Of a stretch of DNA of 64,000 bases, positions 1 to 8,406 are shown piece after piece. The stretch is from positions 682,001 to 746,000 of the forward strand of contig NZ_RAPV01000002.1 of the NCBI RefSeq assembly GCF_003610295.1. The letters run 5' to 3'. How positions within the stretch are numbered: position 1 is the first letter of the stretch; every line of letters begins with the position of its first letter. Source of the stretch: Paraburkholderia sp. BL23I1N1 (GTDB lineage: Bacteria; Pseudomonadota; Gammaproteobacteria; Burkholderiales; Burkholderiaceae). Below the pieces are notes generated by a model, which was not told where the DNA came from, did not search any database, and worked only from the letters and a program-made list of their open reading frames with translations. Both the position numbers and the translations under genes were made by a program.

Positions 1-1564
<1,564 letters not shown>

Positions 1565-1568
1565 GGCG

Positions 1569-2273
1569 TTAACTCGTATATTCAATGTTTGGTTGCTGCG
1601 CCTGTAGCGCAGGCAGCTTCACGATGCGGTCGTACCATTGGCGGAAATGCGGGCATTGCTCGCGAATCCTGTCGAGACCAATGCGAGCGGCAGCGACGGG
1701 GCCGTGTCGGACCTTGCGATAGCGCGGCTGCAATTGTTCAAGACGCTTCGAAGGCGCGGTTTGTGGCGAATCGTTGATCCATTCGGGATCGTCGACGGCG
1801 GCTCGCGCTGCAATCAGCGGTGCGCTTTGTTCCTGCCAGCCGGGCTCGACGTCGCATAGCGAGGCGATGTCCGAAAATAGCAGCGATTCGAATTCGTGCG
1901 GCTGGACGTGAGGAATGAAGCGTTCCGGGCGGCAATCAGCGAAGGCGACGACGTCTTCGTGCATCAGTTTTCCGATGCTGGCCGCGCGTGCGGCTGGCGT
2001 CAGGCCCTTGGTTTCCGCGACTCCGCGAAACGTCTTGTCCAGCCCATACAGATCGAACAGCGTCGTGACGTAGGTGTCGGAGCGCTGGCGCAGCGTATGG
2101 CCGATGAATTTGCGCGCGCGTTCCAGGCTGAGCGCGCCGCCGCGCTGCTCACGTGATGTGTTGATGAGGCGTGCGCTGGCGTAGACGTGGTTCGCGCTGA
2201 GTGCTGGCGCGAGCACATCGCGTACAAAGGTTTCCTCGGTCTGGCCCTCGCCGACGACGATCGATTCAACCAT
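1569..2273 (-). CDS. DUF4276 family protein, TOPRIM-like, partner of the adjacent ATPase
   Basis: This 234-residue protein has the features of the DUF4276 family. It opens with [14 protein letters not shown], where Glu9-Gly10 and the following Glu resemble the first TOPRIM metal motif. [11 protein letters not shown] (about residues 69-79) resembles the acidic second motif, and [15 protein letters not shown] (about 121-135) is typical of the family. Its ATG overlaps the stop of the upstream ATPase gene (TAATG), which indicates translational coupling. The open frame extends further upstream, but that part is the shadow of the ATPase gene. An ATPase next to a TOPRIM-like partner is the layout of OLD-like and PARIS-like defence systems. 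Nuclease activity is an inference; the biochemical role of DUF4276 is not known to me. The module sits inside the metH operon. Confidence 0.82.
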
Positions 2274-3382
2274 TACGCCGGCCTCCCGCCCAACACGTTC
2301 TGTTTCCAGAGGTCGCCTAACGAGTAGTTGCCGAGCCAGTCTTGCAATTGGGTGGCGTCGAGGCGATGGAAGGTTGACGCGTTGTCTTTGCGGTCGACCA
2401 CGATCACGTCTTCCGGGTCTAGCCGATTCAGCAGTTCGACGGATTGCGGTGAGACGATCAATTGCTTTTGCTCTGAGGCGCGCTTCAGCAGGTCGGCGAG
2501 GAGATTGATCGCGTACGGGTGCAGGCCGAGTTCGGGTTCGTCTATCAAAATCGTCGCGGGCATCAGGTCCCACTGCTGGAGGAGAAGCGTGCTCAGACAG
2601 ATGAAGCGCAGCGTGCCGTCCGACAATGCGTGCGCAGTCAACGGCGTATCAGGGTCGCCACGTTCGGTCCATTCGAGTTGCATCTTCGAACTTGGGCCGG
2701 CGCGAAAAATGAATTCATCGAAGAACGGTGCGACGAGACGGATCGTTTCGACTATCTGGCGGTAGCTGTCGGCGTGCTCGGCTTTGAGCATGCGCAGGTA
2801 TGCGGCAAGGTTGGCGCCGTCGGCCTTGAAGCGAAGCGTGTCGTTCGAGGCGTGCAACTGCTTGACCTTGGCATTTTCGCCCGTGTCGTGGAAGTGGTAG
2901 ACACGGGTGCTGTCGAGGACGGCGGCGTATAGGGGCAGGTAAGCGTTGAGAAACGGCTTCAGCGAAGACTCTGGCACTCCACTGCTTCTGCCGGACAGAT
3001 CTCTCATCGCGCCGTCTGTTCCGTAATCCAACACCTCTTCGGAAAAGGTCACGCGGTTGTCGTTGGTTGCAGTCACGCGAACACGATAGCAATTGCGTTC
3101 GTCGGCCTCGTAGGTGTGGTGATCGCCAAAATGTAATGCGATGCTGATCTCGTCGGTCGTCTTTCGCGAAAAATGCAGCAATGCATCCGGTCCACCTTGC
3201 TGCTGCACGTACAACTGAAAGCGCCCTTCGTACATCTCCGCCAGCATCCGAAACAAACCAATAAAGTTCGACTTCCCCGCGCCATTGGCGCCAATCAACA
3301 CGTTGAGATTGCGCAACTCGAAGTCACGCAACTCACGTATCGATTTGAAACCCGCAATTGTCAGTTTGGTGACGCCAGCCAT
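2273..3382 (-). CDS. AAA family (OLD/SMC-like) ATPase
   Basis: This 369-residue ABC/AAA ATPase has a Walker A GANGAGKS at residues 31-38, a signature-like LSDGTLRF at 253-260, a Walker B TILIDEPELGLHP at 277-289 and a downstream IVSPQSVELLNRL segment equivalent to the switch region. The N-terminus (LTIAGFKSIREL) is typical of RecF/OLD-type ATPases that sense DNA or foreign proteins. It lies 31 bases after the metH homocysteine-domain gene and overlaps the DUF4276 gene, so the pair was probably acquired as a unit. By analogy with other ATPase/TOPRIM pairs the ATPase would be the sensor and scaffold and DUF4276 the effector. That division of labour is inferred, not shown by the sequence. Confidence 0.88.
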   Translation of the reverse strand: MAGVTKLTIAGFKSIRELRDFELRNLNVLIGANGAGKSNFIGLFRMLAEMYEGRFQLYVQQQGGPDALLHFSRKTTDEISIALHFGDHHTYEADERNCYRVRVTATNDNRVTFSEEVLDYGTDGAMRDLSGRSSGVPESSLKPFLNAYLPLYAAVLDSTRVYHFHDTGENAKVKQLHASNDTLRFKADGANLAAYLRMLKAEHADSYRQIVETIRLVAPFFDEFIFRAGPSSKMQLEWTERGDPDTPLTAHALSDGTLRFICLSTLLLQQWDLMPATILIDEPELGLHPYAINLLADLLKRASEQKQLIVSPQSVELLNRLDPEDVIVVDRKDNASTFHRLDATQLQDWLGNYSLGDLWKQNVLGGRPA

Positions 3383-3413
3383 CGATCGATCCCCGTCCAG
3401 GTACGCGCCGCGA

Positions 3414-4493
3414 TCAAGCCGTTTCGGTATCGGTTTCCCGATAGTTTGCCCACACCCGCGGCTTCACACCAGCCAACTGCTGAGCAATCGCCGCAATATG
3501 CTCCGGCGTCGTGCCGCAACATCCGCCGGCGATATTCACGAGGCCCGCCTGCGCGAACTCCTTCAGCAATCCCGAGGTATCCGCCGGCAATTCGTCGAAG
3601 CCCGTATCGCTCATCGGATTCGGCAAACCGGCGTTCGGATAGCACGACACATAGGTGTCGCACAGCTTCGCCAGTTCGGCGACGTACGGTCGCATCAGCG
3701 CCGCGCCCAACGCGCAGTTCAAACCGAAAGTGAGCGGTTTGGCGTGACGCAGCGAGTTCCAGAAGGCCTCGACGGTTTGTCCCGAGAGAATCCGGCCCGA
3801 TGCATCGGTAACGGTGCCCGAGATCATGATCGGCAGGCGCTCGCCGGTGTCTTCGAACAGCTCGTCCAGCGCGAACAGCGCGGCCTTGGCATTGAGCGTG
3901 TCGAAGATCGTTTCGACGAGGAACAGATCGCAGCCGCCATCGAGCAAGGCCTTCGCCTGCTCGTAGTACGCCGCGCGCAGTTCGTCGAACGTCACGTTGC
4001 GCGCACCCGGATCGTTCACGTCTGGAGAAATGCTGGCCGTCTTCGGCGTCGGTCCGATCGCGCCGGCGACAAAGCGCGGCTTGTCGGGCGTCGAATATTT
4101 ATCGCAGGCGGCGCGCGCGAGCTTCGCCGATTCGAGATTCATCTCGATGGCGAGGTCTTCCATGCCGTAGTCGGCCTGCGCAACCGTGGTGGCGCCGAAC
4201 GTGTTGGTCTCGATGATATCCGCGCCCGCCGCGAGATACTGCTCGTGAATCTCGCCGATGATCTGCGGCTGTGTGATTGACAGCAGTTCGTTGTTGCCCT
4301 TGATGTCGCGCCCGTAGTCCTTGAAGCGCTCGCCACGATAGCGGGCTTCGTCGAGCTTGTAGCGCTGGATCATCGTGCCCATCGCGCCGTCCAGAATCAG
4401 GATGCGCGACTTGAGCAGCGCGGGCAGCACAGTACCGCGCGTGTAAGCGGCGTCGGGACGGACTGGCGTGGCGGATTGAGCAGGCTGGTTCAT
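3414..4493 (-). CDS. metH: Homocysteine S-methyltransferase subunit of split methionine synthase
   Basis: This 359-residue protein is the homocysteine-binding domain of cobalamin-dependent methionine synthase. It carries [11 protein letters not shown] near residue 32, [15 protein letters not shown] and the C-terminal zinc motif GGCCGTTP at about 323-330; the cysteines ligate zinc and activate homocysteine. It corresponds to only the first third of E. coli MetH; the rest is at 1-1564. Such splitting is common in Burkholderia and relatives, where the two genes are usually adjacent. Here they are separated by the ATPase/DUF4276 pair. The start is the ATG at 4493; a TACAAT box lies about 42 bases upstream. 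No SAH or cobalamin riboswitch was recognised before it. Confidence 0.93.
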
Positions 4494-4534
4494 GGCGGAC
4501 GAGGGCTTGCGCCGACTTTTTCGGGAAACCTGTC

Positions 4535-4540
4535 ATTGTA
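4535..4540 (-). promoter_or_regulatory. Possible -10 box of the metH operon
   Basis: On the minus strand the hexamer TACAAT lies 42 bases before the metH start at 4493. The same hexamer precedes several other genes in this window. No convincing -35 box was found, so this is a suggestion only. Confidence 0.35.
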
Positions 4541-4635
4541 GCCGCAGTGGGGCGGTTCCGCCGGGCAGGGGCCGGGTGGGTGCGCGCGTGTGTCAGGCCG
4601 CGGCGGCTGCGGTTGCAACGGAATCAAAACGGTGG

Positions 4636-4675
4636 AAAACAAAACGGCCCAGTCAGGTGAAAGCCTGCTGGGCCG
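4636..4675 (-). terminator. Rho-independent terminator of the DUF3567 gene
   Basis: A strong stem pairs CGGCCCAG/CAGG with CCTG/CTGGGCCG around a short loop, with one bulged base. On the minus strand it is followed by TTTTGTTTT. It lies downstream of the DUF3567 stop and upstream of metH, insulating the two units. Confidence 0.75.
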
Positions 4676-4768
4676 CGTTACGACTGCTGACCGCCTTATA
4701 AAGGCCGCCGGCTATGCCGGACGGCGCGGTCAATGGTTGTCGCCAAACCGTTACGTCAATCCCTTCAG

Positions 4769-5026
4769 CTAGTGAAGAATCACCGGTTGATGCATCAGGC
4801 TGTCGAACTGTCCGAGGAATTCGTCGACCTCGTCCAGTGACGGCTCCTCTTCAATCAGCTTTTGCACATGCTCGCGGAAACGCGCCGCCATTGCACCGTC
4901 TATGTAGATTTCGCGCTGCAAGTTCTTGTCGACGATCTCGTAGCCTCCCGATTTCATGGCCAGCGGGCCTTCCTGCGGCGGAAACTCGACGACACAATAG
5001 TTGGGGCTGTTATAGATCATTTGCAT
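4769..5026 (-). CDS. DUF3567 family protein
   Basis: This 85-residue cytoplasmic protein starts MQMIYNSPNYCVVEF and contains the segments GYEIVDKNLQREIYIDG and SLDEVDEFLGQFDSLM, which I recognise as the DUF3567 family of Betaproteobacteria. There is no signal peptide, membrane segment or known catalytic motif, and the function is unknown. It is a single-gene unit with its own terminator. An AGGAG-like ribosome site (reverse complement of ACTCCTTA) stands close before the ATG at 5026. Confidence 0.85.
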   Translation of the reverse strand: MQMIYNSPNYCVVEFPPQEGPLAMKSGGYEIVDKNLQREIYIDGAMAARFREHVQKLIEEEPSLDEVDEFLGQFDSLMHQPVILH

Positions 5027-5143
5027 GGCGACACTCCTTATTTCCGTTGGCTCCAGGCCATTCCTGCGCCATAGATGGAGCTTGTGGTGTGGAATTCAAG
5101 GGGTGGGTCCGGATTGACGCTTGTAAAGTTCCGAACCTACCGG

Positions 5144-5932
5144 TTAGACCGGCCTTTCAAGAAACGTTTCAAGCAGTGCAGCAAAACGGTGAGATTGTTC
5201 GATGGGCGCGAGATGAGCGGCATCGAGCAGTTCGAACTGTGCGCCTTGGATGGCGTCTGCGATTGCCTGCGTTGCAGCAGGGGGCGTGCCCGTATCGTGA
5301 CGACCCGCTACGGACAAGGTTGGACGACGTATTGTTCCCAGCTTACTGCGTACGTCGAAATCGCGCAGCGCTTCGCACGCCATGGCGTAGCCTTCTGGCA
5401 ACGTATGCGTCAGCACGTCGCGGATCTGTTCGGCGGCTTCGGGATGCGCGGCCTGAAAATCGGGCGTCAGCCAGCGGCTCATGGTCGCGGGTATCAGGGG
5501 CGCCATACCTTCCGCGCGTGCCGTCGCCGCGCGTTGATCCCACAGCGCACGGCCGTCGGGCAGCGTGCCGCCCGTGGTGTCGGCAACGGTCAGTGTGTCG
5601 ACGCGCGACGGGTGGTCCAGCGTGAATTGTTGCGCGATCATGCCGCCCATCGACATGCCGACAAGATGCGTAGTGGGTGCGCCGAGCGCATCGAGCAGCG
5701 CGGCGAGATCGCGCGACAGATCGGCAATGCCGAAGGGCTCGCTCGATACCGCGGTCTTGCCGTGGCCGCGCAGGTCGTAGCGCAGCACGGTGTAGTTGTC
5801 GCGGAAGTAGCCGGCGAGCTGGTCCCACACAGACAGATCGCCGCCGAGCTGGTGAACGAACGTCAGCCACGGGCCGCCGCCCTCATTGCTCAGGACATAG
5901 CGCGTCTCGATGCCGTTGATTTTCACTTGCAT
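5144..5932 (-). CDS. Alpha/beta hydrolase, 3-oxoadipate enol-lactonase-like
   Basis: This 262-residue enzyme has an alpha/beta hydrolase fold: a nucleophile elbow GMSMGG (about 92-97), the LRYDLRGHG strand and turn at about 49-57, an acidic residue in GRHDTGTP near 210 and a catalytic His in AAHLAP near 239. Length and motif spacing resemble PcaD-type 3-oxoadipate enol-lactonases, which open the lactone of the beta-ketoadipate pathway. However, no other protocatechuate or catechol gene is nearby, so the substrate is uncertain. It is transcribed alone on the minus strand. Confidence 0.85.
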   Translation of the reverse strand: MQVKINGIETRYVLSNEGGGPWLTFVHQLGGDLSVWDQLAGYFRDNYTVLRYDLRGHGKTAVSSEPFGIADLSRDLAALLDALGAPTTHLVGMSMGGMIAQQFTLDHPSRVDTLTVADTTGGTLPDGRALWDQRAATARAEGMAPLIPATMSRWLTPDFQAAHPEAAEQIRDVLTHTLPEGYAMACEALRDFDVRSKLGTIRRPTLSVAGRHDTGTPPAATQAIADAIQGAQFELLDAAHLAPIEQSHRFAALLETFLERPV

Positions 5933-6087
5933 GCGGGCTCCTTGAAGGGGTACGCAGTGGAAAGAGCCGTTGGCGCGCTGCTCCCGCCTTCACTATAACG
6001 TGGCGGCCGCGCGAACGGTTGTCGCTCAATGTGCGAGTGAGCGCCAGCGCGGAAGTTTCAACGATCTGTTCGAGACCCTGCTCGGAT

Positions 6088-7365
6088 TCAGGGCTTTTCG
6101 GGCGGGTTGCCAGGAAGGGTCGAATTGTCCGATGAAGAGGGGGCGGCTTGAGGCGCCATGTCGGGGGCGTTAGCGGGCGGCTGGGTTGCCGAATTGTCAG
6201 GCGAAGTCATGCCGCCGCCATGGCTACTAGCGCCATCGGTGCTGCTGGTGCCATCTGCATTGAGCTTGCCGCGCCACACCAGTTCGAATTGCGTGCCGTT
6301 CGGCTCGGTTTGCATGATTCGCGCGGGCAACCAGCCGAGCGACGGCGCGAGCCATACGTCAATGCGGCGTAGATCGCCGTCATGACGAGGCAATCGTTTG
6401 AAGTGGCGTGTCTCGAGGTAACCCTGCGCGGTGCGGATGGTCTCGTCGCCGATCGTCTCCACTGGCCAGTTCTCGCCGCTATCGTTATCGACGACGAAGA
6501 ATTGCCGCGTCACCCCCGGCTTGTATGCGGCCGGGTCGCCGCGCACGAGGCTGGCAAGCTGCATCACCATGCTGAAACGGTCTTGCGCGCCGTCGGGCAG
6601 TGGCAGCGTGGCCGGGGTGCGCGTGAAGGCGATCTGTTTGTCGGTGCGATTGAAGATCGCCACGTCTTCCGGGCGCCGGCCGCGTTTTTCGATGTACTGG
6701 TCCGGCGCGAGGCCAAATGCGTCGATCCGGCCGTGGCTCGAATACACGAACGTGCCGACGAACGGCAACGGCACGGAGACAATCATCTCGTAGCTTTGTG
6801 CGTTGCTAGCCCAGTGGATTGTGCCGGGCTGGTTGCGCACGCCGTTATAGAACGTGTCGTACTGCAGTTCTCCGGATGGCGGAACGGAGAATTTCACGCC
6901 CGCCGCGGCTTTGGGTGCGCTGGCGGCGGCAGGGGCGCTGGCTGTACCGGCGGTGGTCGCACCCGCATTGGCGTTGGCATGAGTACCGGGGGCACTCGCT
7001 GCGGCCGATGCGCTTGCCGCGGCATCCGATGCGGCGGTGACCGCGGTTGCCTGCTTTGCCGGTTGCGTCGCCGTCAGCACGTGTTCGCGCGGCTTGCTCG
7101 CGGCGGCCTTGTGCGCCGGAGCAGGCGCCGCAGCCGGCTGCGCGTCGGCGGGTTTGCGCTCGATACGTTCGGGTGTCAGCAGTGCGACCTGCACAGGGAT
7201 ATGCTGGTTATCCGATGGATTCAGCGTCGCGCGGTTGCGCTCGACCCATTGCGCCGCGATCCAGTGCAGGACGGCCACCACCAACAGAACCGCAAGCCAT
7301 CGCCATACCCGCAAACCGGCGCGCGGCGTGCGATCCGATCGGCGGGTGGCAGAAGGTGAAGACAT
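6088..7365 (-). CDS. DUF3108 domain protein with N-terminal membrane anchor
   Basis: The chosen ATG at 7365 gives 425 residues. It places a short charged head (MSSPSATRRSDR) before one membrane segment (about 22-40, WRWLAVLLVVAVLHWIAAQW). The open frame continues 44 codons upstream, but that part looks non-coding. After the anchor comes a long Ala/Pro/Lys-rich linker (about 75-150) and then a DUF3108-type domain with GELQYDTFYNGV, HYEM-like and HFKRLPRHDGDLRRIDVWLAP-like segments. DUF3108 proteins are periplasmic proteins of unknown function. The protein is probably anchored in the inner membrane with its domain in the periplasm. Confidence 0.8.
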   Translation of the reverse strand: MSSPSATRRSDRTPRAGLRVWRWLAVLLVVAVLHWIAAQWVERNRATLNPSDNQHIPVQVALLTPERIERKPADAQPAAAPAPAHKAAASKPREHVLTATQPAKQATAVTAASDAAASASAAASAPGTHANANAGATTAGTASAPAAASAPKAAAGVKFSVPPSGELQYDTFYNGVRNQPGTIHWASNAQSYEMIVSVPLPFVGTFVYSSHGRIDAFGLAPDQYIEKRGRRPEDVAIFNRTDKQIAFTRTPATLPLPDGAQDRFSMVMQLASLVRGDPAAYKPGVTRQFFVVDNDSGENWPVETIGDETIRTAQGYLETRHFKRLPRHDGDLRRIDVWLAPSLGWLPARIMQTEPNGTQFELVWRGKLNADGTSSTDGASSHGGGMTSPDNSATQPPANAPDMAPQAAPSSSDNSTLPGNPPEKP

Positions 7366-7524
7366 CGGCGAATGAATTCGAACGGGCGGACGGTAAAGGG
7401 ATGGGCGGGGACACGTCCAGCGGTCCTGCGCGAGGGCAACGGTGAAAGCCTTCAGGCCCGGACACTGAACGGGCACCGAACGAGTTCGACCGCCCACCGG
7501 CGAACGGTGTTCCTGAGCTCAGCG

Positions 7525-8406
7525 TCAGCGTGGCGTCGCACTATACCCGAGCTCGTACGAGAGCTTCTGTGCACAATCGCGTAGCGCCGTATCGATCTCG
7601 CCGCCCCAGCGGATATCGAACGCACCTTCGTGACCGAGCGCGATCAGGCCGAGCGCAAGATCGCCGGTCGAGTCGAATACCGGCATGCAGAACGCGTGGA
7701 TTGTCGGCAGCAACATGCCCTCAACACGCGCCGCTTCGTGCTGCCGCACTTCAGCCAGCAGCCGCTCCACCTCTTCCGGCGTGCGCGGGCCGCCCATATG
7801 CGACGAGCGGCGCGAATCGGCCAGTTCGCGCTCGATCATCGCGGCGGTTTTGCTCGGCGGCAGATAGGCGGCAAACAGCAGACCGGTGGCGGAACTGAGC
7901 AGCGGCATCACGTCGCCGAGCTTGAGCGACGCCTTGGCCGGATGGCTCGATTCCATCCAGTGGACCATCGTCGGTCCTTGGTTGCCCCACACCGCGATGC
8001 CGACTGTCAGGTCGAGCCGGTCGCGCAGTTCAGCGAGCGCAATGCGCGCGAGCTTCACGCCGTCGACGCGTGCAAGCCGCGCGAGCCCCAATTGCAATGC
8101 GAAGCCGCCCAGTTCGTAACGGCCCGACAGCGGATCTTGCGCCACCACGCCGAGGCGCAGGAAACTCACCAGATAGCGGTGCGCCTTCGCAGGACTCATA
8201 CCCGCGCGCTGCGCCAGATCGCGCAGCATCATCGCGCGCGGTTCGTGGGTGAGCACGTCGAGCAATCTGAACCCGACTTCGATCGACTGGATGCCCGAGC
8301 GCAGCTTCTCTTCGCCCGTCTCGACGCTTTCGTCGTCGGATTCGGGCGCTTCGTGCGGTTCCGACGGTTCAGCGGAGTCGGTGTCGGTGCGGGCAGTTGG
8401 AGACAT
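7525..8406 (-). CDS. IclR family transcriptional regulator
   Basis: From the ATG at 8406 (MSPTARTDTD) the protein has 293 residues. An acidic N-terminal tail precedes an IclR winged-helix domain (SIEVGFRLLDVLTHEPRAMM, then MLRDLAQRAGMSPAKAHRYL as recognition region). It is followed by an effector-binding IclR domain with GPTMVHWMESSH, LGDVMPLLSSATG and AFCMPVFDSTGDL. The frame could start further upstream at 8490, but that tail has no sequence typical of the family. It is divergent from the fumarylacetoacetase-family gene at 8673, and a dyad lies between them, so control of that gene is likely. Confidence 0.9.
   Translation of the reverse strand: MSPTARTDTDSAEPSEPHEAPESDDESVETGEEKLRSGIQSIEVGFRLLDVLTHEPRAMMLRDLAQRAGMSPAKAHRYLVSFLRLGVVAQDPLSGRYELGGFALQLGLARLARVDGVKLARIALAELRDRLDLTVGIAVWGNQGPTMVHWMESSHPAKASLKLGDVMPLLSSATGLLFAAYLPPSKTAAMIERELADSRRSSHMGGPRTPEEVERLLAEVRQHEAARVEGMLLPTIHAFCMPVFDSTGDLALGLIALGHEGAFDIRWGGEIDTALRDCAQKLSYELGYSATPR

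Follow-up and report, generated by a model that had tools for sequence, protein, structure and literature searches.

A HEC-01-type ATPase/DUF4276 pair in the metH operon of Paraburkholderia sp. BL23I1N1 as a candidate PARIS-like immune cassette

A stretch of 64,000 nucleotides from Paraburkholderia sp. BL23I1N1 (contig NZ_RAPV01000002.1, positions 682,001 to 746,000; hereafter the window) carries, on its minus strand, an ABC-type ATPase gene and a DUF4276 gene between metH1 and metH2, the two halves of methionine synthase. On balance, the two genes probably form a PARIS-like sensor-effector immune cassette of the HEC-01 type (Hma-embedded candidate 01, PADLOC-DB 2.0), placed in the metH1-metH2 operon with no room for its own promoter. 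Searched against PADLOC-DB, the ATPase matched the HEC-01A model PDLC04175 (E 1.2e-135, residues 4-368) and the DUF4276 protein the HEC-01B model PDLC04188 (E 4.4e-73, residues 1-220); a HEC-01A-type ATPase with an adjacent HEC-01B-type DUF4276 partner is the gene content of HEC-01. Since both proteins have names in this database, the pair, which a preliminary description had been unsure was described, is a known candidate and not a new family.

In the proposed mechanism, the OLD-type ABC ATPase would keep the Toprim-like DUF4276 protein inactive, would recognize a phage product through a hypervariable segment (residues 76-158), and would then release or activate DUF4276, which would cut DNA or, in the manner of AriB, tRNA or some other RNA, so that growth stops. 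The tight spacing of the genes implies that the pair would be expressed from metH by read-through transcription. The preliminary description had suggested a defence or toxin-type system, a putative function that is partly supported and appears right in kind. A broader and more tentative proposal, to which we give somewhat less than an even chance, is that HEC-01-type pairs are promoterless immune modules inside housekeeping operons, and that one Burkholderia-group lineage has made a single spot between metH1 and metH2 its home. Its gains and losses there would be due to allelic recombination, and swaps of an 83-residue segment of the ATPase would supply new trigger specificities, with sensor core and effector remaining constant.

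Occupancy of the metH site

The pair is an accessory insertion at one fixed site in the metH operon. Among 144 genomes of the genus, metH1 was found in 143 and metH2 in all. Gaps in the 143 genomes with both halves were 58-165 bp in 131 (median 96) and 1830-1950 bp in 12; they were counted from where the metH1 match ended up to codon 2 of metH2, so true intergenic distances are slightly shorter. Judged by position, each of the 12 large gaps contains DUF4276, and all 12 ATPases were read as well; the earlier statements that the halves are normally adjacent and that the insertion kept the operon intact are thereby borne out. The site as a hotspot for varied cargo was rejected, because every large gap held the same pair. 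DUF4276 relatives were encoded in 13 of the 144 genomes, namely these 12 and G017, whose metH site is empty and whose relative (41% identical) lies on a different contig.

In a survey of 398 genomes of the family, 20 carried a relative, at metH in 13 genomes (14 matches, at least 53% identity) and elsewhere in seven (at most 43%). In the genus of G152 (Caballeronia group), 57 of 58 genomes had a metH1 match, which ended at residue 358, the occupied type, in the same four genomes that had the pair at metH in the family survey; of 30 of these 57 loci that were read, 29 were empty (gap 4-178 bp) and one was occupied. A scan of named genomes returned 46 loci. The 16 from Paraburkholderia, Burkholderia, Caballeronia and Trinickia (two from one strain) were all at metH; none of the remaining 30 showed a metH half, apart from a metH1-like gene ~7 kb off on the opposite strand in L101.

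On a metH tree of 67 sequences, comprising 60 of the 143 genus genomes and seven occupied loci of other genera without the empty loci of those genera, occupancy required 10 changes, nine of them forced by supported branches. In the ATPase tree, the 19 metH-site copies and five Burkholderia-group proteins labeled 'other' because their site was unread (P0147, P0152, P0161, P0186, P0197) formed one supported group of 24 rows (99/97). The DUF4276 tree was poorly resolved and placed a Ralstonia protein beside B. guangdongensis (90/56). In L007 (G101), the DUF4276 gene (from 1501) stops early at 225 aa by TAA, and similar coding sequence runs on to the usual end.

The metH1 and metH2 genes of occupied genomes matched those of empty sisters up to the junction; for G142 (occupied) versus G026 (empty), the match was 0.93-1.00 per 40-codon window and 0.90 in the last metH1 window. 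At the right junction, native ACGCCATG was kept in the main Paraburkholderia group. At the left junction, the metH1 tail was changed in 10 of the 12 occupied genus genomes, G028 and G108 being occupied yet having the native tail, and four Caballeronia-group loci had WPSHYRE-type tails ending AETV. Because tails differ among occupied genomes, the left junction has several forms, arising from repeated entry or later change. Of the 131 empty sites 48 were read, and every one had the native KPRxWPxxYR-type tail. These 48 also have intergenic DNA of their own, which makes purely vertical descent with deletions doubtful; recombination with an allele in the occupied or empty state is the likelier route of both gain and loss.

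The hypervariable ATPase segment

When ten close metH-site ATPases were compared in 15-residue blocks, identity was 72-100% outside residues 76-165, 17-56% within 76-150 and 65% at 151-165. Between the window's genome (G000) and G043, DUF4276 was 95%, the ATPase flanks 90-95% and the middle 25% identical. Synonymous (dS) and nonsynonymous (dN) divergence was calculated for the 171 pairs of the 19 metH-site copies, such pairs being non-independent here as in the identity comparisons. In the middle, dS was >2 or saturated in 141 pairs and median dN was 0.81. Median dS was 0.73 for metH1 and 0.54 for metH2 (never >2), 1.35 and 1.55 for the two ATPase flanks (>2 in 49 and 48 pairs), and 1.66 for DUF4276 (>2 in 59 pairs). 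By this comparison the whole cassette is more diverged than metH, and the middle most, with the caveat that metH codon use may be more constrained. Nucleotide identity recovered within ~10 codons on both sides of the middle. Raised dS together with this sharp return suggests that the middle was replaced by diverged alleles, presumably through allele exchange, rather than by fast point change alone.

At a flank identity of 0.85-0.90, the middle averaged 0.34 in the metH clade (245 pairs) versus 0.73 in the outside clade control (92 pairs). Clustering gave 37 middle clusters (50% identity) and 24 flank clusters (85%) for 84 metH-clade ATPases, and 16 and 36, respectively, for 80 outside ATPases; metagenome ATPases, whose loci were unread, were assigned to either side by nearest flank identity, and one row left undecided in the flank-identity comparison was counted as outside. 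Four metH-clade metagenome ATPases (P0142, P0150, P0151, P0169) have a middle close to the consensus of the family, a hint that the conserved form came first. Co-evolution of the segment with DUF4276 was unsupported (partial rank correlation 0.06); apart from shared ancestry the segment does not follow DUF4276, as would suit an outward-facing role in recognition. Donor copies of the segment in the same genome were also rejected, as the only other ATPase match was weak and lacked query residues 70-157.

The candidate effector and alternative readings

Toprim domains have a conserved Glu in motif 1 and D-x-D in motif 2. In DUF4276, residues E9, E13, D74, E127 and E129 were invariant across 61 sequences. 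The 507-aa metagenome protein P0154 joins the ATPase to a C-terminal DUF4276; as it lacks the DUF4276 N-terminal part, with motif 1 and D74, it gives no evidence for a working fusion.

Several observations weigh against an immune cassette with a Toprim-like effector and a variable sensor. The TOPRIM-like acidic motifs of the preliminary description would correspond to the invariant E9 and D74, but the predicted fold matches Toprim only moderately (Foldseek E 3.7e-3; hhalign 9-22%) and D-x-D is altered to D-x-Y, position 76 being Y in 58 and V in three of the 61 sequences in a register taken from weak hhalign alignments. Hypervariability is not exclusive to the metH clade: among eight control pairs from outside, two (L104/L105, L119/L120) also have a raised middle and three more have dS too high or saturated to tell. 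In addition, metH clade and metH site are confounded. Most identified neighbors of the pairs outside metH are non-defence genes. The window's own ATPase has Gln at residue 270 (2573-2571; Pro in 54 of 55) and Pro at residue 312 (2447-2445; Thr in 51 and Ser in three of 55); because of P270Q, and of T312P beside a position that we take to be the H-loop, this copy may be weakened.

Residues 76-158 could instead vary because they form a tolerant surface region in which constraint is relaxed or drift is rapid, and the pair could still be a defence system with specificity elsewhere. Indels in the segment, lower model confidence in some of its blocks (predicted local distance difference test 64-79) and the raised variability in the two outside pairs agree with this explanation, but we consider it rather unlikely: dS is raised along with dN, with identity back within ~10 codons on both sides, whereas relaxed constraint alone would not raise dS, and among outside relatives mean identity of the segment is 0.57-0.80 in the bins with a flank identity of 0.70 or more.

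A toxin-antitoxin-like addiction module, or one directed against plasmids or other mobile elements, in which DUF4276 is neutralized by the ATPase and stability in the metH operon, not phage defence, maintains the pair, would account for the close coupling, small size and patchy presence, and for the relatives on 12 plasmid records. We consider it unlikely, a little less probable than drift of the segment. Most sites are empty (131 of 143), as they would not be if addiction held the pair in place strongly, and the variable sensor segment would have no obvious role in such a module. The metH operon is the location of every Burkholderia-group copy that was read at 53% identity or more, and an archaeal OLD-family ATPase has a cell-cycle role instead of a defence role (PMC12796447); the pair might accordingly serve methionine/B12 metabolism or nucleic-acid repair and be co-regulated with metH for that reason. 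This housekeeping role is improbable: of the 143 relatives that have metH, 131 lack the pair, outside the Burkholderia group it has no metH half as a neighbor, and a hypervariable segment argues against such a role.

If the immune reading is correct, HEC-01, catalogued but unexplained, would gain a testable mechanism; the variable segment would predict the sensor-trigger contact, with natural alleles as ready-made swaps. Immune genes could then live outside defence islands on the expression of a core operon, where island-based searches would tend to overlook them.

Locus features, outside loci and known systems

Features are collected in the table. The stop codon of the ATPase gene and the start codon of DUF4276 (ATG, 2273-2271) overlap as TAATG with one base in common; this coupling and the spacing of 31 and 4 bases had been given exactly in the preliminary description. 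No riboswitch upstream of metH1 was matched in Rfam above the gathering score (positions 3300-6000 of the window). The window's genome has one DUF4276 gene. It also has a second, distant ATPase of the same type (G000:C1:2147207-2148361; 33% and 41% in two pieces, open frame of 412 aa) and two OLD-like Toprim domains (G000:C1:805269-805478 and C1:2286123-2286329), the second in a frame of only 190 aa.

Table. Features of the metH operon in the window
Feature	Position	Strand	Basis or remark
metH1, homocysteine-binding half of methionine synthase, 359 aa	3414..4493	-	S-methyl_trans PF02574 E 7.4e-97; lies upstream of pair
Changed 3' end of metH1	3417..3458	-	accompanies occupancy in 10 of 12 occupied genus genomes
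Junction metH1 to ATPase, 31 bases	3383..3413	-	sequence
ABC-type ATPase HEC-01A, 369 aa, proposed sensor	2273..3382	-	AAA_21 E 4.5e-26 (Pfam); stop TAA 2275-2273
Hypervariable segment, ATPase residues 76-158	2909..3157	-	identity, dN and dS comparisons among relatives
DUF4276 protein HEC-01B, 234 aa, proposed Toprim-like nuclease effector	1569..2273	-	PF14103 E 1.1e-51; PDLC04188 E 4.4e-73
Junction DUF4276 to metH2, 4 bases	1565..1568	-	sequence
metH2, pterin-binding/B12-binding half, gene start; continues past window start	1..1564	-	PF00809, PF02607, PF02310; ATG 1564-1562

Outside metH, the ATPase lay directly upstream of DUF4276 in 28 of 30 loci, the others being L112 and L113 (both partial DUF4276 matches). 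In these 28, a co-directional open reading frame (ORF) was found within 60 bp upstream in 13, downstream in 11 and on both sides in seven; ORFs were called mechanically and include at least one apparently spurious call, downstream of L101, and L094/L095, L104/L105 and L119/L120 are close relatives. The pair in L119 has LytB/IspH upstream and SRP54/Ffh downstream. Other identified neighbors were IF-3 (L110), UvrA (L107), a chorismate-binding, trpE-like gene (L118), an Exo_endo_phos gene and a proB-like amino-acid kinase with a PUA domain (L106), and BtrH_N/DUF4872 and an ABC transporter (L094). In L096 the pair is surrounded by HsdS, a ThsA-like gene and HsdR; in L093 HsdS lies two genes upstream. 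Among 107 neighbor ORFs scanned (of 190 called, from 26 of the 30 loci), five matched a mad3 model, four type I methylase and three type I specificity models, and many others were core or uncharacterized genes.

An ORF of 448 aa lies 3-10 bp behind the pair in L117, L119 and L120 (SRP54/Ffh by Pfam in L119 only), and its position may be a second recurrent site like metH. Judged from ORF lengths, L120 has two extra ORFs (488 and 189 aa; 4812-7865) between the LytB-length ORF and the pair that are missing in L119. The 12 plasmid records carry relatives at 34-45% identity, no match was found in 50,697 phage records (E 1e-5), and two uncultivated viral contigs (L245, L246) encode DUF4276 relatives at 36-37% identity.

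In the literature searched, with preprints not covered and the search for housekeeping-operon insertions spoilt by 'meth...' matches, no description was found of the fixed operon site, recurrent tight embedding or variable sensor segment. DUF4276 was not mentioned there either, which says little as bioRxiv preprints were not covered, the passages retrieved for hypervariability with AriA concerned another protein family, and the papers found for MADS were unrelated. HEC and PADLOC turned up in a table of usage and in one remark on HEC activity. HECs are listed under unknown mechanism in PMC10855318; antiviral activity is reported for several, with HEC-06 named and HEC-01 not stated among them in the passage of PMC12988326 that reports it. 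The window pair resembles HEC-01 in both families, their order and their adjacency, but sits in the metH operon rather than in an Hma system, and its ATPase segment is hypervariable in the metH clade.

PARIS (AriA/AriB), the proposed class 4 OLD, consists of an OLD-type ABC ATPase and a Toprim(-like) protein on separate adjacent genes (PMC10568477, PMC12796447); AriA senses phage proteins and AriB cuts tRNA (PMC12409363). The window pair shows this layout in having an ABC ATPase and a separately encoded, adjacent DUF4276 protein, which may be Toprim-like by its moderate fold match. It differs in that its effector is DUF4276 and its best ATPase model is HEC-01A, not AriA. No effector of the AriB family (DUF4435) was found, the protein matching only DUF4276 in Pfam (E <= 0.01) and only HEC-01B models in PADLOC (E <= 1). 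Because the effector family differs from AriB, the pair was not classed as PARIS.

The single-chain ATPase-Toprim layout of OLD classes 1-3 was not found, the pair being two ORFs; unlike the OLD nucleases (class 1/2, GajA), its ATPase and Toprim-like parts are two proteins and D-x-Y replaces D-x-D. The ATPase is related to MAD3 of MADS (NF047739, 96.9 bits; PDLC04135, E 3.6e-27), but its score is far below the curated NF047739 cut-off of 420 bits, and no other MADS genes were found among the four operon proteins scanned. For the variable segment, the proposed analogue is the type I restriction enzymes, whose exchange of target-recognition domains would correspond to exchange of the ATPase segment in a split-nuclease pair.
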